Assembly (NCBI GenBank): GCA_937920275.1
Contig: CALGVD010000018.1
Coordinates: 1-64,000 of the forward strand
Source: an uncultured Pseudomonadota bacterium
GTDB taxonomy: Bacteria > Pseudomonadota > Gammaproteobacteria > Steroidobacterales > Steroidobacteraceae
Direction of reading: 5' to 3'
DNA length: 64,000 bases
This document shows, piece after piece, positions 44,160 to 64,000 of this stretch. Made by a program: the position numbers and the translations under genes. The notes beneath the pieces were generated by a model. It saw only the letters and a list, made by a program, of their open reading frames with translations, was not told the DNA's origin and did not search any database. The number at the start of each line of letters is the position of its first letter. Position 1 is the stretch's first letter.

Positions 44160-44735
44160 TCAGGCGGCGTCGCTCGGCACGAAGGGGCAGTAGTCCTCTT
44201 TCTCGACGACGCCGAGCAGGAACGACAGCTTGGCCATGCCGCCGATGATGGCCATCACCACCCCGAGTTCGAGGATCGCCGCCTCGTCGAAGTGCTGACG
44301 CAGGCGCGCGAACAGCTCGGGTGACACCGAGCCGTTCATGTTGGTCAGCACCATCTGGTCGGCATAGTCGATCACGGCGAGCTCCGCGGCCGTGAACAGG
44401 GTGCCGTCAGCGGTCCCCGCGATCAGGGCGTCGACCTGCCGCTGCGAGAACCCCGCTTCGAGCGCCCCCGGCACGTTCTGCTTGTTGCAGGTCCGGCAGC
44501 CGTGGACGATGGACAGGCGCAGCCGCACGAGCTGCTTGTGGCGTTGATCGACCACGCCGCCGAAGAAGACCTTCATGTAGAACTCGTTCATGACGAGCTC
44601 CAAGAGATGAGGTGCCTGAGCGAAGACCTCGATGAAGGTGGGTTCCCCGGTGAGCTTGTTCAACATGTCCCAAGCCGGGGCGATCTGCGGGGGGAGCTGC
44701 TCACGCGGCGTGCGGGTGAAGAGTGTGTCGACCAT
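44160..44735 (-). CDS. Carboxymuconolactone decarboxylase / AhpD-like protein
   Basis: A 191-residue helical protein of the CMD/AhpD family. The redox-type motif HGCRTCNKQN (CxxC with a following polar residue) is around residue 75, in the conserved RLRLSIVHGCRTCN helix pair. The family includes decarboxylases of aromatic catabolism and peroxidase-linked AhpD proteins; the CxxC points to thiol chemistry rather than simple decarboxylation. AGGAG in front of ATG 44735 sets the start. It is the last gene of a five-gene leftward operon (oxygenase, ketosynthase-like/DUF35, thiolase, SDR, CMD). Confidence 0.85.
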   Translation of the reverse strand: MVDTLFTRTPREQLPPQIAPAWDMLNKLTGEPTFIEVFAQAPHLLELVMNEFYMKVFFGGVVDQRHKQLVRLRLSIVHGCRTCNKQNVPGALEAGFSQRQVDALIAGTADGTLFTAAELAVIDYADQMVLTNMNGSVSPELFARLRQHFDEAAILELGVVMAIIGGMAKLSFLLGVVEKEDYCPFVPSDAA

Positions 44736-44772
44736 GGCGAGATCTCCTTGAGCTGGGATTACCGATCGGGGT

Positions 44773-45675
44773 CTAGCGGTTGGGCACCTTGAACCATTCC
44801 GGGATGTTGCCCGGCCAGACATCACCCCAGAGTTGGTTGCCACCGTCGACGACCAACACCTCGCCGGTGATGAACTTGCCGGTCACGGGCGCACCGACAT
44901 GCAGCACCGATTGGGCGATGTCGTAGGCGTCACCGAGCTGGCGCAGCGGGTTGGCATCGCCGAAACGATCGGCCGCGCCCGGCGGGTAGACATTCAGTCC
45001 TTCGGTGGCGATCGAACCCGGCGAGACGCAGTTGACGCGGATGCCGAGCGGGGCCCACTCGATCGCGATCGACTTGCTGAGATAGATGACGCCGGCGCGG
45101 GCGGCGCAGGTGTGGGCCACCTGTGGCATGCCGCGCCAGACATTGGCGACGATGTTGACGATGGAGCCCGGGACGCCCCGGTCGCGCCAGCGGCGCGCGG
45201 CGGCCTGCATCATCCACCAGGTGCCGTTGAGGTTGGTGTCGATCACCGCATGCCAACCCTTGACCGAGTAATCGATCGCGGCCTGCGGGAACTGGCCGCC
45301 CCCGTTGTTCACGAGCAGATCGAGGCCCCCGTAGCGATCGAAAGTCTCGTCCATGAGCGCATCGACCTGCGCCGGGTCGCGGATGGTCATCGCGCGTATG
45401 CCGATCTCGCGGCCGAGGTGCCGTTGGATGCCGTCTGCGGTCTCGCGCAGGCGCTCCTCGCGGCGACCACAGATCATCACCTCTGCGCCGAGGCGCGCGA
45501 AGAAGTAGGCCATCGCGCGGCCCATGCCGCTGCCGCCACCCGAGACCAGGCAGGTCTTGCCGGCGAGCAGATCGTCGCGGAACGCATGCGGGTGGGTGGC
45601 GAGTTGTTCGTCGGTGAACCCCCAGTTGCGGGGCACCTCGTCCCTGAGGGTGGGCTGCGGAACGGCGGCTGCCAT
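44773..45675 (-). CDS. SDR-family oxidoreductase, enoyl-CoA reductase-like
   Basis: A 300-residue short-chain dehydrogenase/reductase. The cofactor-binding glycine motif is SGGGSGMGRAM near residue 47 and NNGGG marks the central strand. Overall it resembles peroxisomal trans-2-enoyl-CoA reductases and 2,4-dienoyl-CoA reductases (AHTCAARAGVIYLSKSIAIEW). In that helix the residue aligned with the usual catalytic Tyr is Ile, with a Tyr one place later, so the YxxxK spacing is broken to YxxK. It may therefore be a reductase with a changed active site. It lies 37 bp after the thiolase gene; substrates are probably CoA esters. Confidence 0.87.
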   Translation of the reverse strand: MAAAVPQPTLRDEVPRNWGFTDEQLATHPHAFRDDLLAGKTCLVSGGGSGMGRAMAYFFARLGAEVMICGRREERLRETADGIQRHLGREIGIRAMTIRDPAQVDALMDETFDRYGGLDLLVNNGGGQFPQAAIDYSVKGWHAVIDTNLNGTWWMMQAAARRWRDRGVPGSIVNIVANVWRGMPQVAHTCAARAGVIYLSKSIAIEWAPLGIRVNCVSPGSIATEGLNVYPPGAADRFGDANPLRQLGDAYDIAQSVLHVGAPVTGKFITGEVLVVDGGNQLWGDVWPGNIPEWFKVPNR

Positions 45676-45712
45676 GGTGGTTCTCTCTTTCCTTGGGGTG
45701 TTCAGTGGGAGG

Positions 45713-46915
45713 TCAAAGCGAGCGCAGCCCGAGCACCGAGACGCTCGCGACATTGCGGTTCGGGATGCCGCCGAGGTTGTGGGTGAGGCCGAGGCTCGCG
45801 CCCGCGACCTGGCGTCCGCCGGCGCGGCCGAGCAGTTGGTTGTAGATCTCGTAGGCCATGCGCAGACCCGAGGCGCCGACCGGGTGGCCGAAGCACTTGA
45901 GCCCGCCGTCGGTCTGGCAGGGCGTGGCGCCATCGAGATCGAAACGACCGTCGAGGATGTCGAACGCCGCGCGCCCCTCGTCCGAGAGGCCGAGGTCCTC
46001 CATCAGCACGAGTTCGGTGATCGAGAAGCAGTCGTGCACCTCGATCGACGAGAGTTCCCGGCGCGGATCGGTGATGCCCGCTTCGGCATACGCGCGCTGC
46101 GCCGCCGCACGGGTGGTCGGCGTGTGGGCGCCATCCCAGCCTTGGTGCGAGAGTTCGTAGCCGTTGGAGGCGACGAGTTGCAGGGCTTTGATGGCGACCG
46201 CATCGCGTCGTCCGAGTGCCCGTGCACGCTCCGGGGTGGTGACGATCGCACAAGCGGCCCCGTCCGATACCCCGCAGCAGTCGAGCACCCCGAGCGGCCA
46301 GGCGATCATCGGCGCTTCGAGCACCTGCGCTTCGGTGACCGGTCTGCGCAGGTGCGCCTTCGGGGAGTGCACGGCGTTGGCGTGGCTCTTGACCGACACA
46401 TGGGCCATGGCGCGTTTGAGGTCGGCCATCGGCAGCCGATGCTTGGCGGCATAGGCGGCGGCCAACTGCGCGAATGCGCCCGGCGGCGTGAAGCCCGGCT
46501 GCCAAAGATCCTCGAAACTGCCCTTGGTACGCTCGGGGAGTCCGCCGAACCCGGTGTCCTTGAGCTTCTCGACGCCCATGGCGAGGGCGATGTCGCAAGC
46601 CCCTGAGGCGACGGCATACGCCGCGCCACGCAGCGCCTCGGTGCCGGTCGCACAAAGATTTTCGACCCGCGTCACGGGGATCTGGGGCAGCCGCAGCGCC
46701 ATCGACAGGGCGAGCGCCGACTTCGACACGCTCTGCTCGTCGTAGAACACGCCGAGCCAGCCGGCTTCGAGGTCATCGCGTTCGAGGCCTGCGTCGCCGA
46801 GCGCCTCCGTGAAGGCCTCGATCATCAGGTCATCGGGGCCACAATCCCAACGCTCGCCGAACTGCGAGCAGCCCATGCCGATGATCACGACCTTGTCGCG
46901 TATCCCGCTGGCCAT
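45713..46915 (-). CDS. Thiolase (SCP2/acetyl-CoA acetyltransferase type)
   Basis: A 400-residue thiolase-fold enzyme. The nucleophile is in RVENLCATGTEALR near residue 88, and the second half has EVHDCFSITE and the active-site His in KCFGHPVGASGLRM near 340. SCP2-type thiolases cleave beta-ketoacyl-CoA, often of sterol side chains or branched acids, and frequently need a DUF35 partner. Exactly such a DUF35 domain is encoded in the gene directly upstream (1 bp away), as part of a fusion protein. This supports a retro-aldol or thiolytic complex. Confidence 0.9.
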   Translation of the reverse strand: MASGIRDKVVIIGMGCSQFGERWDCGPDDLMIEAFTEALGDAGLERDDLEAGWLGVFYDEQSVSKSALALSMALRLPQIPVTRVENLCATGTEALRGAAYAVASGACDIALAMGVEKLKDTGFGGLPERTKGSFEDLWQPGFTPPGAFAQLAAAYAAKHRLPMADLKRAMAHVSVKSHANAVHSPKAHLRRPVTEAQVLEAPMIAWPLGVLDCCGVSDGAACAIVTTPERARALGRRDAVAIKALQLVASNGYELSHQGWDGAHTPTTRAAAQRAYAEAGITDPRRELSSIEVHDCFSITELVLMEDLGLSDEGRAAFDILDGRFDLDGATPCQTDGGLKCFGHPVGASGLRMAYEIYNQLLGRAGGRQVAGASLGLTHNLGGIPNRNVASVSVLGLRSL

Positions 46916-46916
46916 G

Positions 46917-48371
46917 TCAGGCGTCCCCCAGGGGAGCGGCTTTCCAGAAATAGCGGCGGAAACCGCGCAGCCGATCGATATCTTTGAGGCGGAACACGAA
47001 CCGTACCGCGGCGTCCACCTGCGCTTCACCGGGGTCGAAGTCGGCGAACTCGATGAACGCATTGCCGCCATCGGCGAAGGCGATGTTGCCGTAGACGAGC
47101 GGCGGACGGGCGGTGAAGGCCAGCCAATCCTCGGTGAAGGTCTTGATGCGGCCGGTGTTCTCGGCGAGCAGATGCGGCAATTGGGTGTCGGTCGCACGGC
47201 ATTCCGGGGCGACGCAGACCCGCGAACGCGGGAACTGCACCGTGCCGCAGCGTTCACATCGGCCGCCGGTCAAGGCGGTGACCTCGGCATGCTTGCGCCA
47301 CAGCGCCGGCTGCGCGGTACGGGCATCGCGCTCGGCACGCATGCCGGTCTCCACCTGCAGGATCCCGCAATGGGCGAGGAAGCGCGTGTAGTCGGTCTCC
47401 TCGTGGCGTGCGCGAAGCGAGGCGGCGACGCCGCGGCGTGGCCGCACCGTCCCGATGCGGTCGGTCGCCTGAAGCAACAGCGCATCGACACCTTGGCCGA
47501 AGCCGACCAAGAGGATGAGATCGCCAGGCGCCGCCTTTTCGAGCACTGCCGCCAGCATCAGCATCGAATGACCGCAGCCGGTGAGTCCGCACAGATCGGT
47601 CATGGGGTCGGTCAGCCGGTCCTCGGCGATGCCGCAGAGCGTGGCGAGGCGTTTGCCGATCGCACCATCCGCCGGGACGATGAAGTGGCGGATCGACGAG
47701 CTCGGTACTTCGCTCGTGGTGAGCAGCTCACGCACCACCGGGGGCACTTGGGTGAACCAGCCGGCTTCGCGGGTCCAACGCTCCTCGAGCGTGTAGTCGA
47801 AGGTCTCACCCGCCAAGCGATGATGGTCGACGAAATCTGCAGCGAGGTGCCGTGCGCCGATGCATCGCGCCAGACCGTCGTCCGCACCGACGACCATCGC
47901 CGCGGCGCCATGGCCATAGGCGAGCTCTTGCTCGCTCCCGGGCCGCGCCAAGCGCCGATCCGCGGCGGCGACCACGATCCGTCCGTCCGGGCCGCTGGCC
48001 GCGCGCTGCGTGAAGGCTTGTGCCAGCGCCGTGGTTCCCGCCCGTTGCGAGCCGCCGACATCGGCCGCGAGCACCGAGTCCGGTAGGTCGAGCGCGCTCG
48101 CGACCAAGGTCGCGTTGCTGCGATCGGCGAAGGGCAGGGTGGTGGAGGCGAGCACCAACGAGCGCACATCGCGGCGCGAGGCATAGTCGGGCAAGGCGTC
48201 GCGGATCGCCTCGAGCCCCATCGTCAGGCTGTCCTCGTCCCAGTTGCAGGCGGTGCGTTCGCCGCGGCCCGGCTTCTTGCCGCCGCTCAACCAACCCATG
48301 GCGCCTGCGATCAGCTTGCGCGGGATGCGCAGGCGAGGCAGGTAGACACCGTAAGCTGCGATACCGGGCAT
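46917..48371 (-). CDS. Ketosynthase III/HMG-CoA synthase-like domain fused to DUF35 (zinc-ribbon/OB-fold) domain
   Basis: A 484-residue two-domain protein. Residues 1-330 have a thiolase-like fold related to HMG-CoA synthase (AAYGVYLPRLRIPR, NWDEDSLTMGLEA, ASTTLPFADRSNATLVA, GCGHSMLMLAAVL). The loop where such enzymes hold the nucleophilic Cys reads VGGSQRAGT and has no Cys, so this domain is probably not a condensing enzyme by itself. Residues 345-484 are a DUF35 domain: zinc ribbon GRCERCGTVQFPRSRVCVAP followed by an OB-fold. DUF35 proteins bind acyl-CoA and stabilise SCP2-type thiolases and aldolases. It lies 1 bp before the thiolase gene, so the two products probably form a complex. Confidence 0.82.
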   Translation of the reverse strand: MPGIAAYGVYLPRLRIPRKLIAGAMGWLSGGKKPGRGERTACNWDEDSLTMGLEAIRDALPDYASRRDVRSLVLASTTLPFADRSNATLVASALDLPDSVLAADVGGSQRAGTTALAQAFTQRAASGPDGRIVVAAADRRLARPGSEQELAYGHGAAAMVVGADDGLARCIGARHLAADFVDHHRLAGETFDYTLEERWTREAGWFTQVPPVVRELLTTSEVPSSSIRHFIVPADGAIGKRLATLCGIAEDRLTDPMTDLCGLTGCGHSMLMLAAVLEKAAPGDLILLVGFGQGVDALLLQATDRIGTVRPRRGVAASLRARHEETDYTRFLAHCGILQVETGMRAERDARTAQPALWRKHAEVTALTGGRCERCGTVQFPRSRVCVAPECRATDTQLPHLLAENTGRIKTFTEDWLAFTARPPLVYGNIAFADGGNAFIEFADFDPGEAQVDAAVRFVFRLKDIDRLRGFRRYFWKAAPLGDA

Positions 48372-48375: not shown

Positions 48376-49587
48376 TCAGTCCTTGATCCAGGGCGCCAAC
48401 TTGGGCTGCACACGAAATTCGGGCGGGATACGCCCCTCGCCGATGCGCCGATCGAGCTCTTCGTGCCAGTGATAGATCCGGCGTTCCTGATAGTTGAGCG
48501 TGATGCCCTCGAAAGCCCCGGATTCGACGGATTCCTGGATCTGCTCGGCGAACTGCGTGTCCTCCTCGAGGATGCGCTCGAAGTTCGAGAGCCGTTTCTC
48601 CCAGAGCGGATCGATCTCGCCGCCACCCCAGTCCGGCGCGAACCAAGCGATCTCGATCTCCATGGAGCGCGGACCGGTGGGCCAGAACAGGATGAAGGGG
48701 TTGCCGGTGGCGTCGATCGGCGTGACCAGGTTCGGGTAGAAGAGGAACGAGGGGTTGTTGGAGCGCGTGATCTCGGTGGCGGTCTCGATGCGGCGCATGC
48801 CGCGGGTGCCGGGGTCCTGCCAGTCCGGACGCCGGTTCGGCGTGACCATCAAAGAATGACCACGCGGCCACAGCGTGATGTGTGTGCCGCGGTGATCGAG
48901 GAAACGATCGACGGTGTTGGTATGGATCGACTTGAGGTGATAGACCTCGAGGAAGGCGTCGAGCAGGATCTTGACGTTGCACTTCACCGGATAGCTCTTG
49001 CGGTGCACGAAACGCACCTGCTCCGGCTGGATCTCCTCGAGCATCGCCGGCATCGGTCCGAGATGCGTGAGCAGCGGTTCGGCGTCCGGGTCTTCGTTGA
49101 CGAAGATCCAATTGCCGAAGCGTTCGCAGCGCACCGGGGAGAGCGGGTGCTTCGAGAGGTCGAGGTCGACGAAGTCGCGCTTGTCGCGCAGGTTCATCAG
49201 GCGTCCGTCGAGGCCGTAGGTCCAGCCGTGGTAGCCGCAGACGAGTCCATCCACGCGACCTTTGCACTCGCGCACGAGCGGTGCGCCGCGGTGCCGGCAG
49301 GTGTTGTAGAACGCACGCACGACACCTTCCTTGCCACGCACGATGAGGATCGGTGAACCGGTGCGCTTGAAGAGCTGGAAGCTGCCGGTCTCGGGCAGTT
49401 CGTCGATGTGACAGGCGTAGAGCCAAGCCTTGCGCCACAGATGACCGTCTTCGAGGGCGAGGAACGACGGGTCGGTGTAACGACCGCCCGGGATGACCGG
49501 CAGAGCCGGGAAGCCCTCGGGGGGCGCGACGCGCTCCGCCTCGAGGCGCATGGCGTCCTTCAATCGTTCTACTGTCGCTGCGTCCAT
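48376..49587 (-). CDS. Rieske non-heme iron oxygenase, alpha subunit (second of three)
   Basis: A 403-residue oxygenase subunit. Rieske ligands are C97, H99, C117 and H120 (CRHRGAPLV, CGYHGW). The mononuclear iron site is in ILLDAFLEVYHLKSIHTNTV (Asp, Glu, two His). It is shorter than the other two and of a different branch: CRHRGAPL is typical of carnitine/choline-monooxygenase-like and terephthalate- or salicylate-type enzymes. I chose ATG 49587 (GGAG 13 bases upstream); an ATG at 49623 would add 12 residues. It is the first gene of the five-gene operon ending at 44160, and the shared operator-like motif lies 62 bp upstream. Confidence 0.92.
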   Translation of the reverse strand: MDAATVERLKDAMRLEAERVAPPEGFPALPVIPGGRYTDPSFLALEDGHLWRKAWLYACHIDELPETGSFQLFKRTGSPILIVRGKEGVVRAFYNTCRHRGAPLVRECKGRVDGLVCGYHGWTYGLDGRLMNLRDKRDFVDLDLSKHPLSPVRCERFGNWIFVNEDPDAEPLLTHLGPMPAMLEEIQPEQVRFVHRKSYPVKCNVKILLDAFLEVYHLKSIHTNTVDRFLDHRGTHITLWPRGHSLMVTPNRRPDWQDPGTRGMRRIETATEITRSNNPSFLFYPNLVTPIDATGNPFILFWPTGPRSMEIEIAWFAPDWGGGEIDPLWEKRLSNFERILEEDTQFAEQIQESVESGAFEGITLNYQERRIYHWHEELDRRIGEGRIPPEFRVQPKLAPWIKD

Positions 49588-49696: not shown

Positions 49697-50617
49697 ATGG
49701 CCGACCTGATCCTCCACCACCACGATCCCTCGCCGTTCGGCGAGAAGATCCGGCTCTGCTTCGGGCTCAAGGGGCTCCCCTGGGACTCCGTGCAGGTGCC
49801 GATGTTGCCGCCTCGGCCGCTGGTGGAGCCGCTGACCGGGGGCTACCGGAAGATCCCGGTCCTGCAGGTGGGTGCCGACATCTACTGCGACACGCGTCTG
49901 ATCGCGCGCGAACTCGAACGCCGCTACCCGCAGCCGACCTTGTTCCCGCAGGGCAGTGAGGGCTTGGCGATCGCGCTCGCGGCTTGGAGCGACCGCAGTT
50001 TCTTCGACCCGGGTGCCGGATTGTCGATGGGGCTCAACCGCTCGATGATCCCGCCGGCGATCATCGAAGATCGCAAAGATTTCTTCAATTTCATGGATTT
50101 CGACCGTCTCGAGGACGACCTGCCGCACCTGTTCACGCAGTTCAGGGCGAACCTCGCCTATGTCGAGCGGATGTTGGCGGATGGTCGCCGGTTCGTGCTC
50201 GGTGATGCGCCGTCATTCGCTGATATCGACGCCTATTTCCCGGTCTGGATGGCACGCGGCAACATCGGCGATGCGCCGCGCTTGCTGCAGCCTTTCGAGC
50301 GGTTGCGATCTTGGGAGGCGCGGATGGATGCGCTGCCGCGCGGTCTGCGCCGCGACATCGACGGTGAGCAGGCCTTGGCCGTGGCGCGTGCGGCGTCGCC
50401 GCTCGAGCCGCTCGGCGTCGAGGCCGACGATCCCTTGCGGCTGTCCGCGGGGGATGCGGTGGTCGTGACGCCCGACGACTATGGCCGCATCCCCGTCACC
50501 GGCGAACTCGTCACCCTCAATGTCGATGAGGTCGCCCTGCGCCTGCGTTCAGCGCCGGTCGACGAAGTGATCGTGCACTTCCCGCGGCTCGGCTATCGTG
50601 TCGAACGCTGTCGCTGA
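49697..50617 (+). CDS. Glutathione S-transferase-like protein with C-terminal extension
   Basis: A 306-residue protein with an N-terminal thioredoxin-like GST domain (LILHHHDPSPFGEKIRL, YRKIPVLQVGADIYCDTRLIARELE) and a helical C-terminal domain (GDAPSFADIDAYFPVW). Residues about 230-306 are an extra, mainly beta segment not usual for GSTs. In aromatic and steroid catabolic clusters such proteins isomerise or open ring products, or remove electrophiles with glutathione. The Ser in PSPFGEK is a candidate thiol-activating residue. It is divergent from the second oxygenase gene across 109 bp and convergent with the CoA-transferase gene, 4 bp apart. Confidence 0.82.
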   Translation: MADLILHHHDPSPFGEKIRLCFGLKGLPWDSVQVPMLPPRPLVEPLTGGYRKIPVLQVGADIYCDTRLIARELERRYPQPTLFPQGSEGLAIALAAWSDRSFFDPGAGLSMGLNRSMIPPAIIEDRKDFFNFMDFDRLEDDLPHLFTQFRANLAYVERMLADGRRFVLGDAPSFADIDAYFPVWMARGNIGDAPRLLQPFERLRSWEARMDALPRGLRRDIDGEQALAVARAASPLEPLGVEADDPLRLSAGDAVVVTPDDYGRIPVTGELVTLNVDEVALRLRSAPVDEVIVHFPRLGYRVERCR

Positions 50618-50621: not shown

Positions 50622-51821
50622 TCAGGTCACCCCTTGACGGTGCAGTTCGGCGATCGCGGCCGCGTCGTAGCCGAGTTCCCGCAGCACTTCGTCGGTGTGC
50701 TCGCCGAGCAGCGGCGGGCGGCGGGTGATGCCTGCGGGGTTGGCCGAGAAACGCAGCGGCAGATCGGGCACGGGCGCAGGGCGCGGCAACCCAGGATAAT
50801 CCGCCACCGGCTTGAACCACGCCATCGCGGCGGCCTGTGCATCGTCGAGCGCTTGCTGGGGCGTAAGCACCTGGGCGGCGGGCAGACCCGCAGCGGCGAG
50901 TGCTTCGAGGGCGCTCGCCGTGTCGCGCTCGGCGCACCACGCGCGCATCCGCTCGAGGATCGCGGCGCTGTGCCTGCCGCGGCCATCATCCGTCGCGAAT
51001 CGCGGATCGCCGGTCCATCGCTCGGCATCGCCCATCAGGCGTGCCCAGCGGCGGAACAGCCCGTCGCCGACCACATGCGTCAGCACATGACCGTCGCGCG
51101 TCGCGAACACATCGGAGGGCGCCGAGGTCTGCACCCGGTTGCCGGTGCCGACCCGGTCCGGCTTGGCGACAGCTTGTTCGATGAGGTGCGAGCCGAAGAC
51201 CGACAGCGCCGTCGCCTGCAGCGCGGCCTGTACATGTTGGCCGCGTCCGGTGCGCTGCCGCTCGAGCAGCGCCGCGAGCGCACCGAACGCCGAGAGCACG
51301 GCCGTCGAGTAATCGACATAGGGTGCCGCCGCTTTGGCGGGCGAGCCGGGTGTGCCGGTGATGGTCATCGCGCCGGAGAGCGCTTGGCCGACCCCGTCGA
51401 ATCCGCCCTGCGCGGCACGCGGGCCTTGGTCGCCGAACGCGGTCTGGGTGACCAAGATGATCTCCGGGCGCAGCGCCGAGAGGCTCGGCCAATCGAGGCC
51501 GAGGGCGGTGAGCCCGCTCGGCGGCAGGTTGGCGACCACGATGTCCGCGGTGCGCAGCAGCCGCTGCATGATCTCGCGACCCGCGGCGCTGCCGGGATCG
51601 AGCGTCAGCGAGCGCTTGTTGCAGGCGGTCTGGAAGAACACACCGCCTTCACCGCCCTCGCAGATCGGTGCGATGTAGCGGTCTTCGCTGCCGCCGATCT
51701 TCTCGATGCGGATGACCTCCGCGCCGAGGTAGCCTAGCAGGGTCGCACAGTAAGGACCGGCGACGTAGCGACCGAAGTCGAGTACGCGGACGCCGGAGAG
51801 TATCGGTCGGGTTTCGATCAT
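50622..51821 (-). CDS. CaiB/BaiF-type (family III) CoA-transferase
   Basis: A 399-residue CoA-transferase that moves CoA between acyl groups through an aspartyl anhydride. N-terminal block VLDFGRYVAGPYCATLLGYLGAEVIRIEK, then RSLTLDPGSAAGREI and the catalytic Asp in YVDYSTAVLSAFGAL near residue 170. Length is normal. BaiF, CaiB and related enzymes act on bile-acid, carnitine or aromatic CoA esters; the substrate is unknown here. It is divergent from the acyl-CoA dehydrogenase gene with only 14 bp between starts. Confidence 0.92.
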   Translation of the reverse strand: MIETRPILSGVRVLDFGRYVAGPYCATLLGYLGAEVIRIEKIGGSEDRYIAPICEGGEGGVFFQTACNKRSLTLDPGSAAGREIMQRLLRTADIVVANLPPSGLTALGLDWPSLSALRPEIILVTQTAFGDQGPRAAQGGFDGVGQALSGAMTITGTPGSPAKAAAPYVDYSTAVLSAFGALAALLERQRTGRGQHVQAALQATALSVFGSHLIEQAVAKPDRVGTGNRVQTSAPSDVFATRDGHVLTHVVGDGLFRRWARLMGDAERWTGDPRFATDDGRGRHSAAILERMRAWCAERDTASALEALAAAGLPAAQVLTPQQALDDAQAAAMAWFKPVADYPGLPRPAPVPDLPLRFSANPAGITRRPPLLGEHTDEVLRELGYDAAAIAELHRQGVT

Positions 51822-54762: not shown

Positions 54763-55305
54763 TCAGCCAAGCCGTCGCAACGGCCGCTCGCCGTCCCAGC
54801 CGTCCGCTGCCGTGCGGACGAAATTGAAGAACGCGTCGATCGCCGGTCCGCGCTCGATCAGTTCGATCATCCCGCCCGGATGCGCACCGGGCAGCGCGTC
54901 GGTGTCCACATAAGCGAAGCGGATGCCGTTCGCCGTGCTGCCGGATTGGGTCGCGGAGATCCCCCGGGCGGCGAGCATCGCCAACTGTGCCTCCACCGAG
55001 TCGGTCATGACGCCGAGATGCTGCAATCCGCTGCCGCCGACGAAGCTCGAGTAGATCGTCGGCACCGCATCGTGCTGCCGGATCAGCTCGACCTGCATCT
55101 CGCCCCATTGCCCGACCGCGACCGACATGTCGAACGACACCGGCTGGCCGCGGTATCGGCACTCGGCGTACTGGATGTGCTCCATCAGGAAGAACGGGCC
55201 GACCCCGAGCCCCGCCCAGTGCAGGGCGGCGGCCTCGAGGTCCGGGACCACGAAGCCGAGCTGCATGACCGGCCCGAACAGCGTCGATCGCGCGGCGGGG
55301 GTCAT
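54763..55305 (-). CDS. VOC-superfamily protein, paralogue 2
   Basis: A 180-residue VOC protein, homologous along its length to paralogue 1. Corresponding metal-site candidates: QLGFVVPD (no His here), MQVELIRQHD, SGLQHLGVM and GMIELIERG. The first His of the pattern is missing, so the two proteins may differ in metal binding, or work as a heteromer. The ATG overlaps the stop of the ABM gene (ATGA), implying coupled translation; the function in the pathway is unknown. Confidence 0.82.
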   Translation of the reverse strand: MTPAARSTLFGPVMQLGFVVPDLEAAALHWAGLGVGPFFLMEHIQYAECRYRGQPVSFDMSVAVGQWGEMQVELIRQHDAVPTIYSSFVGGSGLQHLGVMTDSVEAQLAMLAARGISATQSGSTANGIRFAYVDTDALPGAHPGGMIELIERGPAIDAFFNFVRTAADGWDGERPLRRLG

Positions 55306-55601
55306 CCCACCCACTCGAAGAAATCGATGGTCATGCCCTCAGCGCCGCCGTCGAGGCAGGCAAAGATGGGCGGGACCAGGCGGTCGTGGAAATCGGTCTT
55401 CTGGTGGAACTCGAAAGCCGCCGGATCTTTGAACCGCGCGTAGACCGCGTACACGCCGGGCTTGTCGACATGCCGCACGACATCGTAGACGAAGGTATCG
55501 GGTTCGGCGTCGTGGGTGAGGCGGGAGAGCTCCTGCTGCAGGCGCTCGAATTCCTTTTCCTGGCCGGGTTTGACCTTGAGGGTCGCGAAGAAGACAGTCA
55601 T
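55302..55601 (-). CDS. ABM (antibiotic biosynthesis monooxygenase) domain protein
   Basis: A 99-residue single-domain protein with the dimeric ferredoxin-like ABM fold: FFATLKVKPGQEKEFERL, VYDVVRHVDKPGVYAVYARFKD and AFEFHQKTDFHDRL. Members include cofactor-free monooxygenases acting on quinol-like substrates and also non-enzymatic proteins. It lies 28 bp after the acyl-CoA synthetase gene and is coupled to VOC paralogue 2, so all three act in the same pathway. Confidence 0.85.
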   Translation of the reverse strand: MTVFFATLKVKPGQEKEFERLQQELSRLTHDAEPDTFVYDVVRHVDKPGVYAVYARFKDPAAFEFHQKTDFHDRLVPPIFACLDGGAEGMTIDFFEWVG

Positions 55602-57310: not shown

Positions 57311-59203
57311 TCATTTATCCTCGGGCGCGAACGCCAGCAACACATTACCCGGCATGTGGAAATACGTGCCGTAGCCGGAGGCCGCGAACAGCATCCCGTC
57401 CTGCACGATCGGTCCGGCGCCACCGCCGAACGAGCCGCCGTGCGCGCTGCCGCCGTCCGTGGTGGGGAAGGTCTGCGTGGCGTCGAACTCCCAGATCACC
57501 TGACCGGTCGCTGAGTCGTAGGCCCGCAAGCGCCCGTCCATGTGGCCCGCCAGCACGGCGCCGGGCATGGAAGTGATCGCGGCGGAGATACCAGGTTCAC
57601 AGAACTGACGACCGTTGCAGACGTTGTCGGCCGGCGTCGACCACAGGAACTTTCCGGTCGTGACATCGAGCGCGTAGAGGCCGGCCTTCGAGGCCACGGC
57701 GTGGAGGTTGGTCTCCGCCTCCGGGTTCGACATGTCCGTGATCGGCACGAACAGTCGCTGACCGTCGAGCGCCATGCCGAAGTGCACGCCGCCCTGGATA
57801 CCGCCGCGACCGACTTTGGTGCCCCAGACTTTCGCGCCGTTACGGGCGAGATCGAGCGCATAGACATCGCCGGATTTCTGTCCTGCCAGCAGCAAGGCTT
57901 GGCCATCCGCACCGCGCGCGACGATGGTGCTCGCGCCGAAATCGAAATCCGGGCCGTCTTCGACCGGGCAGTTGGGGTTGTCGGGCATCATGCAGGCGAC
58001 GTTCCAGGCATCGCCTGCGGTCTTCTGCCGTGACCAGAGAACTTTACCGGTGTTGAGGTCGAAGGCGAGCAGCGCGTCGCTGCGATCGTTGGAGGGCGAG
58101 GAATAGTTCTCCCCGGTGCCGACATAGAGCAGACCGCGCGCGGTGTCGATGGACGGACTGTTCCAGATCGGGGCGCCCGAGGGCGCGAGGATCGGCGTGC
58201 CGACACGGGTCTTGCCGACTTCGCGCGGCGCTTCGTCGATCGAGTAGCTCTTCCAGGCCTGCGAGCCATCGCGGGCGTCGAGCGCCACCACCGAGCCACG
58301 GAACGAGCAGCAGGGATATTTGGGATCGGCGGCCGAGGTGACCTCGAGCGAGGACACCGGCACGAACAGCCGACCCTGATAGAGCACCGGCGCGCCCGTG
58401 ACGGTCGCGTTCGGGTGGTCATCGACCTTCGCCGACCAGACGAGTTCGCCGGTCTGCGCATCGACGGCATAGACGCGCGCGATCAGGTCGGCGAAGTAGG
58501 CGAGGGGGCGCTGCGGCGGTGAGCCCGCGTCCCAGCCTTCGAGGGTGACGGGCGAGCGCACCTCGGCGCTGGCACGGAATGTCCAACGCACGCAGCCGCT
58601 TTCTTTGTCGAGTGCATAGACCGTGCCGTTCTGGCTGCCGACGAACACGGCGCCCATGGCGACGGTCGGTTGCGAGCGCGCGCGTTGGGCGTTCGGGAAG
58701 GCGAACGCCCATTTCAGCTTGAGCTTGGGCAGATCGCTCGCAGCGAGCTGGGCGACCTCCGCCGGGATATGCCGCTGGTTCTCCCGCGACACGCCCCAAC
58801 CGGCTTTCGCGGGCGGTCGGCGCAGGTCGAAGTCGCGGGCTGGGCCCATGCACATCGGTGCGGCTGCGCGGGCGACCAAGGTATCGAGCGACACGCCGGC
58901 GAGATACTCGGCGACCGCACGCCGCTCCGCGGCATCGAGCCCGGCGGATTGCGCCTGCATGATGCCTTGCTCCATCGCGAGCAGCAGGCCGTCCGCCGGC
59001 ATCATCTGCAAGAAGGTCTTGTGGGGCGCCTTGGCGACGCCGCCCTCGTGGCATTGGGCGCAGGCGCGGGCGTAGGGTGCCGCCCCGGGGTGCGGCGTGG
59101 CCTGTTCGGTCTGTGCGTGCGCGAGTGATGAAGCGCCGAACAGGACGGACAGCGCGATGGCGAGCCCTGCGCCCAGCGCGCTTCGTATGGAAGATGTATT
59201 CAT
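57311..59203 (-). CDS. Cytochrome c / PQQ (quinoprotein) alcohol dehydrogenase, PVA dehydrogenase-like
   Basis: A 630-residue periplasmic protein: signal peptide (cleavage near AHAQ), an N-terminal cytochrome c domain with the heme motif CAQCH near residue 50, and a beta-propeller with repeated PQQ-type blades (GTVYALDKESGCVRWTF, YAVDAQTGELVWSAK, GLYALDVTTGKFLWS, LRAYDSATGQVIWEF). The cytochrome in front of the propeller is the layout of polyvinyl-alcohol dehydrogenase rather than of methanol dehydrogenase. It probably oxidises a secondary alcohol and passes electrons through its heme. A TonB receptor in the cluster would supply the substrate to the periplasm. GAGGGGGGA before ATG 59203 sets the start. 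Confidence 0.87.
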   Translation of the reverse strand: MNTSSIRSALGAGLAIALSVLFGASSLAHAQTEQATPHPGAAPYARACAQCHEGGVAKAPHKTFLQMMPADGLLLAMEQGIMQAQSAGLDAAERRAVAEYLAGVSLDTLVARAAAPMCMGPARDFDLRRPPAKAGWGVSRENQRHIPAEVAQLAASDLPKLKLKWAFAFPNAQRARSQPTVAMGAVFVGSQNGTVYALDKESGCVRWTFRASAEVRSPVTLEGWDAGSPPQRPLAYFADLIARVYAVDAQTGELVWSAKVDDHPNATVTGAPVLYQGRLFVPVSSLEVTSAADPKYPCCSFRGSVVALDARDGSQAWKSYSIDEAPREVGKTRVGTPILAPSGAPIWNSPSIDTARGLLYVGTGENYSSPSNDRSDALLAFDLNTGKVLWSRQKTAGDAWNVACMMPDNPNCPVEDGPDFDFGASTIVARGADGQALLLAGQKSGDVYALDLARNGAKVWGTKVGRGGIQGGVHFGMALDGQRLFVPITDMSNPEAETNLHAVASKAGLYALDVTTGKFLWSTPADNVCNGRQFCEPGISAAITSMPGAVLAGHMDGRLRAYDSATGQVIWEFDATQTFPTTDGGSAHGGSFGGGAGPIVQDGMLFAASGYGTYFHMPGNVLLAFAPEDK

Positions 59204-59240
59204 TGACGGTTCCCCCCTCGTTGAACTGCGGCAGCGGTTG

Positions 59241-60251
59241 TCATTGCTTGACCAGTCTGCGTATCGCGGTCTCGATGGCCTGCGGACTTGGCACATACAA
59301 GCGCTCGAGTTCGCGCGCGAACGGCACCGGTGTGTGCGGTGAGGTGATCTGCACGATCGGCGCCTTCAATGCATGAAAAGCGTTGCTCGCCACCAAAGCG
59401 GCGATATCCGAGGCGACCGAGCAGCGCGGTGGCGATTCGTCGATGATGACGAGCCGACCGGTGTTCTCGAGGCTCTCGTAGATGGTCTCGTCATCGAGCG
59501 GCGAGAGGGTGCGCGGGTCGATGAGATCGGCGGTGATGCCGTCGGCCGCGAGCGCATCGAGCGCCTTCTCGGCGAACGACACCATGCGGCCGATCGCGAC
59601 CACCGTGACATGCTCGCCCTCGCGCACGAGCGCCGCTTCGCCGAACGGGATCGTGTAGTCGCCCTCCGGGACCGCGCACTTGCGCGGGTAGAGCGCCTTG
59701 TGCTCGAAGAACACCACCGGGTCGTCATCGCGGATCGCGGTGAGCATCAAGCCCTTGGCATCGTAGGCGTTGGAGGGCACGACCACCTTGAGGCCCGGCA
59801 CGGCGGTGACCAGCGCGTACATCGATTGGCTGTGCTGCGCGCCCATGTTCATGCCGGCACCGGTGGCGGTGCGGATGACGATGGGGCAGGCGGTCTTGCC
59901 GCCGAACATGTAGCGGAACTTCGCGGCCTGGTTGAAGACCTGATCGAAACACACGCCGAGGAAATCCGCGAACATGAGCTCGGCCACCGGCCGCATCCCC
60001 GCGAGCGCCGCGCCGTTGGCCGCCCCGATGATCGCGGACTCGGAGATCGGGGTGTCGATCACGCGGTCCTCGCCGAACTTCGGCAGCAAGCCCTTGGTGA
60101 CCCCGAACACCCCGCCCGCCGCGTCGCGCTGGCCGGAGGTGCCGCCCGCGCCGCCGGAGACGTCCTCGCCGAGGACGATCACGCGGGGATCGCGTGCCAT
60201 CTCGAGGTGCAAGGCCTCGTTGATCGCATCGCGCATGGAAAGTTGTCGCAT
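59241..60251 (-). CDS. 2-oxoacid / acetoin dehydrogenase E1 component, beta subunit
   Basis: A 336-residue TPP-dependent E1 beta subunit. Typical blocks: MRDAINEALHLEMARDPRVIVLGEDV, TPISESAIIGAANGAALAGMRPVAE, MGAQHSQS and VVVPSNAYDAKGLM, then the C-terminal domain IDPRTLSPLDDETI. With the alpha subunit encoded just upstream it decarboxylates a 2-oxoacid or acetoin. No E2 or E3 gene is in the window. It is 29 bp after the alpha gene. Confidence 0.93.
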   Translation of the reverse strand: MRQLSMRDAINEALHLEMARDPRVIVLGEDVSGGAGGTSGQRDAAGGVFGVTKGLLPKFGEDRVIDTPISESAIIGAANGAALAGMRPVAELMFADFLGVCFDQVFNQAAKFRYMFGGKTACPIVIRTATGAGMNMGAQHSQSMYALVTAVPGLKVVVPSNAYDAKGLMLTAIRDDDPVVFFEHKALYPRKCAVPEGDYTIPFGEAALVREGEHVTVVAIGRMVSFAEKALDALAADGITADLIDPRTLSPLDDETIYESLENTGRLVIIDESPPRCSVASDIAALVASNAFHALKAPIVQITSPHTPVPFARELERLYVPSPQAIETAIRRLVKQ

Positions 60252-60280: not shown

Positions 60281-61249
60281 TCAGTATGAAACGTAGACGT
60301 CTGTGAGCAGGTCGGCCGCGGTGGGCGGCGCCGCGCTGCGCGCTGCGGCGACCGAGCGGTCGATCAGCCCCATCACTTCGGCATCGACCGCATCGAGGGC
60401 GGCGTCATCGAGCAGGCCTTCCGTGGTGACGCGGGCGCGGAAGATCCGCAGGCAATCCATGGTCTCACGATGCCGCGCGACCTCGTCTTTGGCGCGGTAG
60501 AGCATCGGATCGCCTTCGAAGTGGCCGAAGAAGCGCGTGGTCTTCGCTTCGATGGTCGAGGGTCCGCCGCCGTTGCGCGCGAGCTCGAGCGCCCGTGCCA
60601 TCGCCGCGTGTACCGCAAAGAAATCCGACCCGTCGCAGGTCTCGGCGGGCATGCCGAAGCCGCGGGCGCGGCCGGCGATGTCGCGCGAGCCGACCGCATA
60701 GTCCGCGCCGGTGTGCTCGGAGTAGCCGTTGTCCTCGAAGACGAAGATCGCCGGTGCCTTCAGCACCACAGCGAGGTTCATGGCCTCGAACACGGTGCCC
60801 TGGTTGCAACTGCCGTCGCCGCCGAAGGCGACAGCGACCTTGCCGTCACGGCGGGCCTTGCAGGCGATGGCGGCGCCGACCGCGATCGGCGGTCCGCCAC
60901 CGACGATGGCGTTGGCCCCGAGCATGCCCTTTGACATGTCGGCGATGTGCATCGAGCCGCCCTTGCCCTTGCAGAGGCCGTCACGGCGGCCGTAGATCTC
61001 GAGCATCATGCCCGTGACATCGCAGCCCTTGGCGATGCAGTGGCCGTGGCCCCGATGGGTGCTCGCGATCCAGTCGGCATCGCCCAAGTGCTCGCAGACG
61101 CCTACGGCGACGGCTTCTTGACCGGAGTAGAGGTGCGTGAAACCCGGGATCTCGCCGGTCTGGATCTCGACGTGCAGGCGCTCCTCGAACTCGCGGATGG
61201 TCTTCATCTGCCGGTAGGCGCGGAGCAGTCGATCAGGGGGCAGCGGCAC
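60281..61249 (-). CDS. 2-oxoacid / acetoin dehydrogenase E1 component, alpha subunit
   Basis: A 322-residue TPP-binding E1 alpha subunit: STHRGHGHCIAKG, GKGGSMHIADM, and the TPP/Mg motif FGGDGSCNQGTVFEAMNLA through EDNGYSEHT near residue 170. It pairs with the following beta gene. It begins with GTG (AGGAG 8 bases upstream). The 127 bp before it, after the third oxygenase gene, hold a strong dyad. Confidence 0.92.
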   Translation of the reverse strand: MPLPPDRLLRAYRQMKTIREFEERLHVEIQTGEIPGFTHLYSGQEAVAVGVCEHLGDADWIASTHRGHGHCIAKGCDVTGMMLEIYGRRDGLCKGKGGSMHIADMSKGMLGANAIVGGGPPIAVGAAIACKARRDGKVAVAFGGDGSCNQGTVFEAMNLAVVLKAPAIFVFEDNGYSEHTGADYAVGSRDIAGRARGFGMPAETCDGSDFFAVHAAMARALELARNGGGPSTIEAKTTRFFGHFEGDPMLYRAKDEVARHRETMDCLRIFRARVTTEGLLDDAALDAVDAEVMGLIDRSVAAARSAAPPTAADLLTDVYVSY

Positions 61250-61342: not shown

Positions 61343-61376
61343 ACGAGCATCTTTGCTTTTTTACCGTCCTGCGGCC

Positions 61377-62777
61377 TCAGGCACCGCCTGGACCCTGCAC
61401 ATAATCGTCCAAAACCTTGTGGAAGTGGCGGATCCGCAGTTCCTGCGATCCGACCCACAGCCCCTCGAACGCCTTCGATTGCATCCCGGCTTGTACGCCG
61501 GGCAGGTTCTGGGCGTCCTGGTCGAGCACCAAGCCGATCGATTTGTCGCCGTAGGCGAAGCGTTGGTGCCGCGGCCGTGGTGGCCGCTCTTGGCCGTCCG
61601 GCACGAGTTCGAGGGTCCAGATGTCGTAGAACATCCGGTTCGGGTCGGTCGGGTGCGGGCGCTGCCTGAACAGCATCAGGTCGTCGGCATGCGCGTTGAG
61701 GGTGACGTTCGGGAAGATCAGGTAGTGATAATCGTCGGTCAGCTGGTCGTCGTTGAGGCGTGAATAATCTTTGCCCTGCGACGGTCCGACCTTGCGCTTC
61801 TGCTTCTGGACATCGCGGCGGATGTTCTCGATCGGCTCGTCGTAGTCCGCCGGGTCCATCCCGGCACCCTTCATGATCGTCTTGATGGGGTCGGGGATCG
61901 AAGGCGGCTTGCGGACGCGCGGACTGACCACGCCGAACGGGATCAGGTAACGGTTGTGACGCTCGTAGCAATCGATCTGGATGTCGAGATCGTGCAGGTA
62001 ATAGAGCAGCTGCGGATGGATGCCCTGCACATGGTAGCTTTCATTGAAGGCATCGACCGAGGCCTTCCAGTTGCATTCCCATTCGACCGTGATGTCGCGG
62101 GTGAGCGCCATCTTCGTGAAGTTGTACGGGTCGAGATGCAGCGGCATCGGCTCGAGGAACTCGCGCAGCGGGCCCACGGACTTGTCGAGGCTGAACCAGA
62201 CGAACCCGCCCCAAGTGTCGCAGGGCAGTTCGACGAGCCCTCGGCAGGGCGGTGCACCCTGCGGGAAAGTGTCGAGGTCGGGGATGCGCTTGAAGCTGCC
62301 GTCGATCTCGTATTCCCAGTGGTGGTACTGGCACTTGAACGACGCCGCGCTCGAGGCGCCCTCGGCACGCAGGCGGTTCCCGCGGTGCAGGCAGACGTTG
62401 TAGAACGCGCGCATCGCGCCGTCTTTCTGCCGCACCAGCAAGACCGACTCGCGGCCGATCTCGGTGCAGATGTAGTCGCCGGGTTCGGTGACATCCGATT
62501 CGAGGCCGCCGAGCAACCAGACCTTCGTCCACATGCGCTCCCACTCGAGACGCATGAAATCCGTGGAGGTGTAGCGTTCTTTGGCGATCGGGTCGCCGCC
62601 CAGGCTGGGGTCGGGGGCCTTCTCGGTGGGTGTGCCGCCGGGGATCGCCTCGGCGCGGCGTACCTTGCGGTAGGCGGGCGCACGCGACGCAGCCGCCAAG
62701 GCTTCGCGGTCGAGGCCGGCGGGCGGGCCGGCGGGCGGGTCGGTCATAGGCTTATCGGTCATGTTCGGATCGGTCAT
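61377..62777 (-). CDS. Rieske non-heme iron oxygenase, alpha subunit (third of three)
   Basis: A 466-residue oxygenase subunit, most similar in layout to the first one (DFMRLEWERMWTKVWLLGGL against FMQLEWQRMWPKVWLLAGV). Rieske ligands are C129, H131, C149 and H152; the second motif reads CQYHHWEY where most have YHGW. The mononuclear site is in NWKASVDAFNESYHVQGIHP (bridging Asp, Glu, two His). The N terminus is a low-complexity tail with three in-frame MTD units (residues 1, 6 and 11), so the real start is uncertain; I chose the first, whose ATG overlaps the ThuA stop as ATGA. Substrate unknown. Confidence 0.92.
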   Translation of the reverse strand: MTDPNMTDKPMTDPPAGPPAGLDREALAAASRAPAYRKVRRAEAIPGGTPTEKAPDPSLGGDPIAKERYTSTDFMRLEWERMWTKVWLLGGLESDVTEPGDYICTEIGRESVLLVRQKDGAMRAFYNVCLHRGNRLRAEGASSAASFKCQYHHWEYEIDGSFKRIPDLDTFPQGAPPCRGLVELPCDTWGGFVWFSLDKSVGPLREFLEPMPLHLDPYNFTKMALTRDITVEWECNWKASVDAFNESYHVQGIHPQLLYYLHDLDIQIDCYERHNRYLIPFGVVSPRVRKPPSIPDPIKTIMKGAGMDPADYDEPIENIRRDVQKQKRKVGPSQGKDYSRLNDDQLTDDYHYLIFPNVTLNAHADDLMLFRQRPHPTDPNRMFYDIWTLELVPDGQERPPRPRHQRFAYGDKSIGLVLDQDAQNLPGVQAGMQSKAFEGLWVGSQELRIRHFHKVLDDYVQGPGGA

Positions 62778-63535
62778 CCCAGCGTTCCATCGAGTCTTGC
62801 GGCCCAGCGTACCCCGCGGCTGAGCAGTTCGCGGAACGCCGGCACGGGCCAACTGCCCCGCTCGACCGCAGGATACTCCGCCATCAAGGGTTGCATGTCG
62901 TAGCGCCCGCGGGCGTGTCCGAGCGTGAAATAGAGCAGTTCGCCGTCGCCCTCGCGCTTGAGGTACATGACGGGGCGCGGCTCGTCGCGCGTCCAGTCAC
63001 GATCGACGAACAGCGGCGTCTCCCCGCTCCAGCGCGTGTGCAGCAGCACCTCGAGCGGGCCGTGCAGTTCGGAGAGGTAGAGTTCATCGTCCGCGTGGAA
63101 GGGCTCGATCCCCGCCACCAACGGATGGTCAGGCTGCGTGATCTCGACGAGATAGGGCGCGATCGGCGGATGCGAGAGGAACTGGCTGCCGACGGTCTGC
63201 ATGAACGCGGCGCGGTCGCGCGGCGCCTCCCAAGCCTTCGCCGCCTTCGACCAGCGCAGCACCGAGTTGGTGCCGTGCAACGCGAGCCAGCGGTGCCCGG
63301 CCGCCAGCCACTCGCGCAGCCGCAGCGCCGTGGACTCCTCGGGCACCACATCGACCGTATAGGTGACGAGCAGGTCCGCCGCCGTGATCGCGTCGATGTC
63401 GCGGTAATCCTCGAACACCCGCACGCGGATCTGATCGTGCGCCGCGAGCGTCTCGAGCAGCTGCAGGCGTGCGTAGTCCATGTCGTGATAGCGGCCGCCC
63501 ACCACGAGCGCCGCATTGATGCGGGGCGGCAGCAT
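62774..63535 (-). CDS. ThuA-like domain protein
   Basis: A 253-residue protein with the class I amidotransferase-like ThuA fold: AALVVGGRYHDMDYARL at the start, DLLVTYTVDVVP, WLALHGTNSVLRW and a C-terminal PVMYLKREGDGELLYFTLGHARG. ThuA proteins are linked to sugar-derivative use, but their reaction is generally not known, and the family occurs in steroid and aromatic degraders too. It lies between an SDR gene and the third oxygenase gene, whose start it overlaps by 4 bp. Confidence 0.8.
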   Translation of the reverse strand: MLPPRINAALVVGGRYHDMDYARLQLLETLAAHDQIRVRVFEDYRDIDAITAADLLVTYTVDVVPEESTALRLREWLAAGHRWLALHGTNSVLRWSKAAKAWEAPRDRAAFMQTVGSQFLSHPPIAPYLVEITQPDHPLVAGIEPFHADDELYLSELHGPLEVLLHTRWSGETPLFVDRDWTRDEPRPVMYLKREGDGELLYFTLGHARGRYDMQPLMAEYPAVERGSWPVPAFRELLSRGVRWAARLDGTLG

Positions 63536-63541
63536 GGGCGA

Positions 63542-64000
63542 TCAGTACTGGACGCGCTTGGTGAACCCGTTGTCGGCGACCAGGTTCGCACCGGTGATGA
63601 TCGAGGCCGCCGGGCTCGCGAGGAACGCGACCGCCCGCGCGATCTCCTCGGGCGTCCCGAAGCGTCCGTTCGGCATCGCCTTCAGCGTGGCATCGTGCAT
63701 CTTCTGGTTGGTGCTCTTGATCATCTCCCAAGCGCCGCCCTCGAAGTAGATCGGTCCCGGCGAGACGGTGTTGACGCGGATGTTCTTGCGGCCGATGAAC
63801 TGCGAGAGCTGCTTGGAGTAGGTGAGGAGCGCGGCCTTCATCGCGTTGTAGGCCATCGGCGCGTAGAAGGTCTCGAGCGCGTTGGTCGAGCCGATGATCA
63901 CGATGCTGCCGTGGCCGGATTTCTCGAGCTGCGGCATCAGCTGCTCGCAGCCGCGCACCGTGTGCAGCACATCGACCTCGAAGCACTTCCACCAGTTCTT
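63542..64000 (-). CDS. SDR-family oxidoreductase, 5' part beyond the window
   Basis: The frame is open to the window edge, so the N-terminal cofactor-binding motif is outside; 152 residues are visible. The catalytic elements are complete: Ser in GSTNALETF, YNAMK (YxxxK) and VNTVSPGPIYFEGG, ending with ITGANLVADNGFTKR. An NAD(P)-dependent dehydrogenase or reductase, probably acting on an alcohol or ketone intermediate. It ends 6 bp before the ThuA-like gene and so is upstream in the same operon. Confidence 0.88.
   Translation of the reverse strand, partial: KNWWKCFEVDVLHTVRGCEQLMPQLEKSGHGSIVIIGSTNALETFYAPMAYNAMKAALLTYSKQLSQFIGRKNIRVNTVSPGPIYFEGGAWEMIKSTNQKMHDATLKAMPNGRFGTPEEIARAVAFLASPAASIITGANLVADNGFTKRVQY

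Follow-up and report, generated by a model that had tools for sequence, protein, structure and literature searches.

We analysed a 64,000-nucleotide stretch of DNA (the window) from an uncultured gammaproteobacterium of the Steroidobacteraceae: positions 1 to 64,000 of the forward strand of contig CALGVD010000018.1 (C18, 78,490 bp) in GCA_937920275.1, a 2.7-Mb metagenome-assembled genome (MAG) that is 99.75% complete. Genes were called from codon usage and then scanned against Pfam and NCBIfam. The right-hand part of the window holds an island of about 25 genes, including those for three Rieske oxygenases, which occupies about 39,759–66,417 of the contig and crosses the right end of the window. 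The block is one conserved catabolic unit, far beyond chance adjacency, and it looks like a whole pathway for the breakdown of one organic compound. All its enzyme families are known, as is this kind of cluster, the CoA-dependent catabolic island. The genes are as follows.

39759..41108, minus strand: c28, Rieske oxygenase alpha subunit, first of three (449 residues), left end of the conserved block (Pfam Rieske and Ring_hydroxyl_A)
41596..44061, plus strand: c29, TonB-dependent receptor, probable uptake (Pfam plug and barrel)
44160..44735, minus strand: c30, AhpD/CMD-like protein (PF02627)
44773..45636, minus strand: c31, SDR dehydrogenase (family scan; orthologues of 55–69% identity also in the alphaproteobacterial versions)
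45713..46915, minus strand: c32, SCP2-type thiolase, PRK06157 (NF004810 and motifs)
46917..48371, minus strand: c33, pseudo-KAS/HMG-CoA synthase (HMGS), PhlA-like, fused to a zinc-ribbon/OB DUF35 part (family scan, alignment, Foldseek)
48376..49551, minus strand: c34, second Rieske oxygenase alpha subunit (391 residues), bridging Glu202 in EVYH
49697..50617, plus strand: c35, glutathione S-transferase (GST)
50622..51821, minus strand: c36, class III (CaiB/Frc) CoA-transferase (PF02515, E=6e-107)
51836..52996, plus strand: c37, acyl-CoA dehydrogenase (71–76% identical in the alphaproteobacterial versions)
53001..53315, minus strand: c38, Rieske-type ferredoxin, presumed electron donor for the oxygenases
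53344..54147, minus strand: c39, SDR dehydrogenase
54180..54746, minus strand: c40, VOC-superfamily protein (Glyoxalase_4)
54763..55305, minus strand: c41, VOC-superfamily protein (Glyoxalase_4)
55302..55601, minus strand: c42, ABM-domain protein, quinol monooxygenase-like
55630..57309, minus strand: c43, acyl-CoA ligase (AMP-binding)
57311..59203, minus strand: c44, cytochrome c plus pyrroloquinoline quinone (PQQ)-type beta-propeller alcohol dehydrogenase; its N-terminus has a signal-like stretch
59204..59240: gap of 37 bp at the position of the E2 gene in sister genomes
59241..60236, minus strand: c45, 2-oxoacid dehydrogenase-type E1 beta
60281..61249, minus strand: c46, 2-oxoacid dehydrogenase-type E1 alpha
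61377..62777, minus strand: c47, third Rieske oxygenase alpha subunit (466 residues)
62774..63535, minus strand: c48, ThuA-domain protein
63542..64303, minus strand: c49, SDR dehydrogenase (the window ends at 64000)
64343-65101, minus strand, beyond the window: c50, SDR
65263-65916, plus strand, beyond the window: c51, TetR regulator
65935-66417, plus strand, beyond the window: c52, MaoC hydratase

The original prediction, made from the window alone, had described a catabolic supercluster at 44,160–64,000. All the gene families that it named were recovered in place by the Pfam and NCBIfam scan, and the whole of that stretch belongs to the island. The unit is wider: on the left it takes in the Rieske gene c28 and the TonB receptor gene c29, and beyond the window a fourth SDR gene, the TetR gene and the MaoC gene.

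Gene content, gene order, conservation, co-occurrence and the state of active sites were read directly from the sequences. Five more genomes of the genus (G019, G014, G022, G001 and G007) keep c28 to c37 and c39 to c50 in unbroken order, mostly at 57–93% protein identity. At the left end, orthologues of c28 (80–81% identical) and of the receptor c29 (78–81%) lie at the same positions in the sister genomes. As markers of the two ends and the middle of the block we followed c28, c47 and c33 across 98 relatives. Orthologues of the three occur in exactly the same 20 genomes; the raw chance figure for this co-occurrence is 3e-21, ignoring shared ancestry. Four further genomes carry only a more distant c33 (42–45% identity). 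Within the genus the island is patchy (8 of 24 genomes) and therefore accessory. The ratio of nonsynonymous to synonymous substitution rates (dN/dS) for block genes is 0 to 0.16 against G004, where orthologues are comparable, and 0.05 to 0.26 against G019; the G004 values for c28, c47 and c50 were excluded as paralogue matches (27–31% identity), their orthologues lying on other contigs. Purifying selection thus acts on nearly all block genes that could be compared.

Outside this lineage the unit recurs in looser order. In a sample of 299 Pseudomonadota, a close c47 was found in just one other genome (G228), the complete chromosome of a distant proteobacterium, which carries 16 orthologues, 42–75% identical, within about 30 kb. 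All three Rieske genes with the same partners are found on plasmids of Niveispirillum cyanobacteriorum, Sphingobium RAC03, Novosphingobium PP1Y, Novosphingobium SA1 and Croceicoccus marinus. Plasmids of Paracoccus and Terrarubrum carry orthologues of c34 and c47 and no close c28. On the Niveispirillum plasmid, four genes of the tryptophan-halogenase family and a TonB receptor (L068:38176-44300) directly adjoin the island's second half.

Gene order is looser in the alphaproteobacterial versions than in the genus. It differs from family to family, and some relatives have the half with E1 and the PQQ enzyme tens of kb away from the half with the Rieske and thiolase genes. These last two features speak for several unrelated operons that happen to lie side by side and form no single pathway. 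Against this, the markers of both ends co-occur perfectly in the 20 relatives, and none of the 98 has an orthologue of c28 alone or of c47 alone. The clustering is repeated in Alpha- and Gammaproteobacteria, and the set stays together on chromosomes and megaplasmids even where its order is scrambled. We consider chance adjacency very improbable: conserved order, marker co-occurrence and purifying selection together place the block beyond it.

The presumed C-C-cleaving module of the island is the pair c32/c33. The original prediction had read a fusion of thiolase and DUF35 here; the thiolase is a separate neighbouring gene, and the N-terminal part of the fusion is HMGS/KAS III-like. The thiolase, c32, scores 645 bits on NF004810 against a cut-off of 403. 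It keeps the nucleophilic Cys88 (ENLCATG, aligned to the 6esq thiolase) and the HDCF and GHP motifs, and its structural relatives are PDB 7yvy, 6esq, BbsB and PhlC. In c33 the first 330 residues match HMGS and KAS III models, and only the C-terminal part is of the ChsH2/DUF35 zinc-ribbon type. The catalytic Cys position of c33 is occupied by Gln109, invariant in 12 orthologues, and the active-site Glu aligns to Thr. This count comes from a clean 12-row alignment. In a separate alignment several distant loci had wrong frames and were ignored; among the distant homologues that aligned properly, the Cys position holds Gln, Leu or Arg. The alignment indicates that the KAS-like domain of c33 is catalytically dead, and with both residues replaced, c33 does not qualify as an archaeal-type HMGS. 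The zinc-ribbon cysteines are intact (CxxC...CxxxxC, residues 372–391), with a zf-ChsH2 match and a match to the DUF35 chain 6esq_E. The top Foldseek matches of the AlphaFold model (mean predicted local distance difference test score, pLDDT, 68.6) are PhlA, archaeal HMGS and MucABC subunits.

A close parallel is the Friedel-Crafts acylase PhlACB (PpATase) and the archaeal thiolase-HMGS-DUF35 complex, with which the island shares a Cys-thiolase, an HMGS/KAS-like partner (lacking Cys and Glu in PhlA as in c33) and a zinc-ribbon/OB DUF35. In PhlACB the chemistry is carried out by PhlC residues only, PhlA lacks Cys and Glu, and the reaction is reversible (PMC6392133). Because c33 is PhlA-like and has likewise lost both residues, we infer by analogy that c32 and c33 may form a PhlACB/HMGS-like complex of one catalytic subunit and a fused scaffold. 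The differences are that the KAS-like and DUF35 parts are here fused in one chain, that the cluster is catabolic with no polyketide genes, and that PhlA has Gly where c33 has Gln. If c32/c33 formed a C-C bond, as PhlACB does, the island could make a small polyketide-like or acylated metabolite. The nearness of c33 to PhlA, MucABC and the archaeal HMGS complexes, and the reversibility of PhlACB, are compatible with such a biosynthetic role. However, the block contains no polyketide synthase (PKS), type III PKS or non-ribosomal peptide synthetase, while the set of TonB importer, CoA ligase, acyl-CoA dehydrogenase, CoA-transferase and E1/E2 genes speaks for a consuming role, and the same thiolase/KAS-DUF35 pair occurs in many other clusters of beta-oxidation type. 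We regard biosynthesis as quite improbable.

The lineage itself, which is Steroidobacteraceae-like, invites a different thought: a variant steroid or bile-acid pathway, with the thiolase/DUF35 pair performing side-chain aldolysis as Ltp2 and Sal do. Thiolase/DUF35, acyl-CoA dehydrogenase, CoA ligase and SDR genes recur in sterol side-chain catabolism, where the aldolases have YDHF or YDCY in place of the thiolase motif HDCF (PMC12329534). The Ltp2-ChsH2 and Sal-Shy systems resemble c32/c33 in pairing a thiolase-fold enzyme with a DUF35 partner that cuts a CoA-activated side chain; they differ in that their partner is a hydratase-DUF35 rather than a KAS-DUF35 fusion. With its Cys88 and HDCF, c32 looks like a thiolase and not like a steroid aldolase. 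None of the three Rieske enzymes is closest to a steroid hydroxylase, and the KshA_C family (PF19298), the marker of aerobic 9,10-seco steroid degradation, has no match in the genome. Flavoproteins of the 4-oxocyclohexanecarboxylate/ketosteroid (KstD) dehydrogenase type do occur in the Paracoccus and Terrarubrum versions, but the island in the window contains no KstD-like gene. A steroid pathway is therefore, in our view, unlikely.

The sampled alphaproteobacterial versions mostly have an enzyme of the Ltp2/Sal type, a Cys-less Tyr-Asp-Ala-Phe (YDAF) protein. Sphingobium RAC03, Croceicoccus, Terrarubrum and G228 carry a YDAF thiolase-fold protein at the position equivalent to c32, and the Cys is absent in the three that were aligned. 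Where the plasmid clusters are annotated, its neighbour is a separate DUF35 gene. Niveispirillum, itself an alphaproteobacterium, has the Cys-thiolase/KAS-DUF35 version, and the two versions therefore appear to have been exchanged rather than to follow a strict class difference. Judging from their position, they would perform the same step. This suggests that C-C cleavage is a shared step whose chemistry has been swapped between thiolase and aldolase-like versions. Apart from the island, the c32/c33 pair turns up as a portable unit in CoA-dependent catabolic clusters of quite different kinds, on plasmids of Sphingobium strain Tom, Azoarcus KH32C, Tistrella, Variovorax SRS16, Sphingopyxis macrogoltabida and Novosphingobium US6-1. 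Two of these, Variovorax SRS16 and S. macrogoltabida, have DUF35 zinc cysteines that look degraded.

The three Rieske oxygenases c28, c34 and c47 are single-subunit enzymes of the alpha type, and the block holds no beta partner. All keep the CxH...CxxH cluster site and an E-x-Y-H...H (2-His) iron site, with the motifs ETYHLPHIH, EVYHLKSIH and ESYHVQGIH. The bridging carboxylate is Glu in each, as in CntA and Stc2, and the group V monooxygenases (CntA, Stc2, GbcA) are among the best matches to solved structures and families. The overall similarity is low, and motif alignment finds the Cys-x-x-Cys pair of CntA and Stc2 in none of the three, for which reason we kept them out of group V. A 44% match in Rhizorhabdus wittichii DC-6 raised a link to the chloroacetanilide N-dealkylase CndA, which could not be established from the literature found. 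Electrons presumably arrive through the ferredoxin c38, and a homologue of phenylpropionate-dioxygenase-type reductases on contig C121 is a candidate ferredoxin reductase.

Between c45 and c44, the five genomes with unbroken gene order encode an E2 protein (dihydrolipoyl acyltransferase), about 400 residues long. Here E1 alpha, E1 beta and E2 do not form one operon, and 37 bp are left at the E2 site. A 55%-identical E2 is encoded on contig C10 beside a cytochrome P450 (P450), a second cytochrome-c/PQQ enzyme and a TonB receptor. In G042 and Croceicoccus, genes of the P450, PQQ and TonB kinds are found clustered with the island, and the C10 region probably belongs to the same supercluster, from which it has been displaced. 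The gap thus reads as an operon rearrangement and not as a free-standing E1. The C10 region as a whole (1-15183) also contains an SDR gene and RND-efflux-like genes, its E2 gene standing alone. E1 alpha (c46) is most like pyruvate dehydrogenase, a likeness that does not identify the 2-oxo substrate. The cytochrome-c/PQQ enzyme c44 gives partial matches only to solved quinohaemoprotein dehydrogenases; its domain order may suggest a polyvinyl-alcohol dehydrogenase.

Genome-wide searches gave no match to the LigB (PF02900), intradiol (PF00775) or HgmA (PF04209) families; together with the missing KshA_C match, this agrees with the earlier statement that no standard ring-cleavage dioxygenase was recognised. 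Control searches with the four models found matches elsewhere, weakly so for KshA_C. The genome gave 14 VOC matches; among the four longer open reading frames checked, one is a 4-hydroxyphenylpyruvate dioxygenase and the others fall below the cut-offs of ring-cleavage equivalogs. The family scan of the block proteins found no extradiol equivalog. A VOC-type extradiol enzyme of an unusual kind could still be present. A cyclic substrate would likely be opened by a hydrolytic, thiolytic or thiamine-dependent route.

These results bear on the possibility that the island degrades plant or algal phenylpropanoids or lignan-type aryl ethers. The Rieske enzymes would then be O-demethylases, the GSTs would cleave ethers or remove glutathione, the PQQ enzyme would act on a side-chain alcohol, and a PhlACB-like complex would remove an acyl group from the activated aromatic ring. 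Polyphenols are substrates of PhlACB relatives (PMC6392133), dealkylation occurs among Rieske enzymes (PMC12445004), and the ABM protein is quinol-monooxygenase-like. The GST genes are in tandem in several relatives, with a single one in the window. However, c35 is only weakly like lignin-type GSTs and has its full-length matches in two GSTs of unknown function, and an aromatic ring would have to be opened in a genome with no LigB extradiol, intradiol or homogentisate dioxygenase. We hold aryl ether catabolism to be unlikely.

The accessory genes of other versions give some indication of the substrate. In Paracoccus the island includes a Liv-type ABC importer, which suggests a smaller, modest-sized polar acid, at least in that organism. 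The KstD-type flavoproteins favour an alicyclic ring as substrate in Paracoccus and Terrarubrum. A hydrophobic polycyclic substrate is unproven. A bolder proposal, rather unlikely as it stands, is an aerobic pathway for cyclic compounds that dispenses with a ring-cleaving dioxygenase. In it, hydroxyls introduced by the Rieske enzymes would be converted by dehydrogenases to a 1,2-dione, a 2-oxoacid or a beta-ketoacyl-CoA, and the ring would be opened without oxygen by the thiamine-dependent E1/E2, the thiolase/KAS-DUF35 pair or both, with aldolase and thiolase versions exchanged between lineages.

Gene content, conserved order, co-occurrence and active-site residues lead us to read the stretch at 44,160–64,000 as the main part of one chromosomal catabolic island for one organic compound of moderate size that would be CoA-activated, oxygenated by Rieske enzymes and cleaved thiolytically or aldolytically, with a probability of roughly two in three. 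The compound would enter through the TonB receptor c29, and the periplasmic cytochrome-c/PQQ enzyme c44 would oxidise an alcohol group. The resulting acid could be activated by the CoA ligase c43, the CoA-transferase c36 or both. The oxygenases c28, c34 and c47 may hydroxylate or dealkylate at different positions, with electrons supplied by c38 and a reductase encoded elsewhere. Acyl-CoA dehydrogenase c37, MaoC hydratase c52 and the SDRs c31, c39, c49 and c50 would then produce a beta-keto or beta-hydroxy thioester, in which a C-C bond would be cut by the Cys-thiolase c32 in complex with the dead KAS-DUF35 scaffold c33. With the E2 from the other contig, c46/c45 might turn a 2-oxo acid or an alpha-hydroxyketone formed on the way into an acyl-CoA. 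The TetR protein c51 is the probable regulator.

The order of these steps and the single common compound are interpretation, and several points weigh against the scheme. The step order is guesswork. The Rieske enzymes match solved structures over their N-terminal half only, and the AlphaFold model of c34 (mean pLDDT 43) is too poor to infer a substrate pocket. The scheme gives no role to the CMD, ABM, VOC, ThuA and GST genes. E2 is encoded outside the operon here, and E1 alpha and beta may therefore be uncoupled. As to the predicted catabolism of one hydrophobic substrate by oxygenation, CoA activation, side-chain shortening and ring opening, the genes for oxygenation, CoA activation and beta-oxidation or C-C cleavage do lie in one conserved unit, whereas hydrophobicity, a steroid or polycyclic aromatic nature and ring opening are guesses.

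Two described systems resemble the island in part. The ibuprofen cluster ipfABDEF of Rhizorhabdus wittichii MPO218 and its relatives uses a CoA ligase, a dioxygenase and a thiolase/retro-aldolase in sequence on an acyl-CoA (PMC9195938). That pathway ends in a catechol and extradiol cleavage, in contrast to the island, which has no identified ring-cleaving dioxygenase; three Rieske enzymes, E1/E2, the PQQ enzyme, the CoA-transferase and the acyl-CoA dehydrogenase are on the island side. Clusters of the isoGHIJ type for isoprene and styrene share an SDR, a class III CoA-transferase, two GSTs and a Rieske ferredoxin; the roles proposed there are formation of a CoA thioester for IsoG and removal of glutathione for IsoJ (PMC10057887). 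The likeness is one of gene kind. An isoprene-type pathway, suggested by the CoA-transferase and GSTs, was rejected as a membership since the block lacks a diiron monooxygenase and its oxygenases are of the Rieske type.

The synteny search, which the original prediction had proposed as a check on its claim of no described pathway, met no characterised degradation cluster. In the collections and literature searched, which left most subscription papers outside, no characterised pathway has this gene set, and 'uncharacterised' is accordingly provisional. The module is common to uncultured freshwater (lake) Steroidobacteraceae-like bacteria and cultivable alphaproteobacteria, so that its substrate can be sought in cultured carriers: Sphingobium RAC03, Novosphingobium PP1Y and SA1, Croceicoccus and Niveispirillum. 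It extends the PhlACB/HMGS/thiolase complexes by a naturally occurring protein in which an inactive KAS-like scaffold is joined to DUF35. It also offers a case in which, within one pathway, a single step appears to have passed between a Cys-thiolase and a Cys-less aldolase-like enzyme.

To the left of the island, at 28310-38549, glutamine-synthetase-like, aminotransferase and ABC-transporter genes look, from a reading of the sequence with no family search, like a cluster for polyamine uptake and use. To the right of the window, at 67149-70646 of the contig, lies a gene for a fused B12-binding/MeaB/methylmalonyl-CoA-mutase-type protein (IcmF-like, 1165 residues), adjoined by TetR and enoyl-CoA hydratase genes. 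No relative tested has the mutase within the block, and we therefore excluded it and the enoyl-CoA hydratase from the island; the genes further right read as housekeeping. The closest c33 proteins in named relatives are annotated as belonging to Steroidobacteraceae or Gammaproteobacteria MAGs. Two records titled Klebsiella pneumoniae (CAMAQZ010000047.1 and CAMCBU010000018.1) encode Steroidobacteraceae-type proteins, and their titles are evidently wrong.

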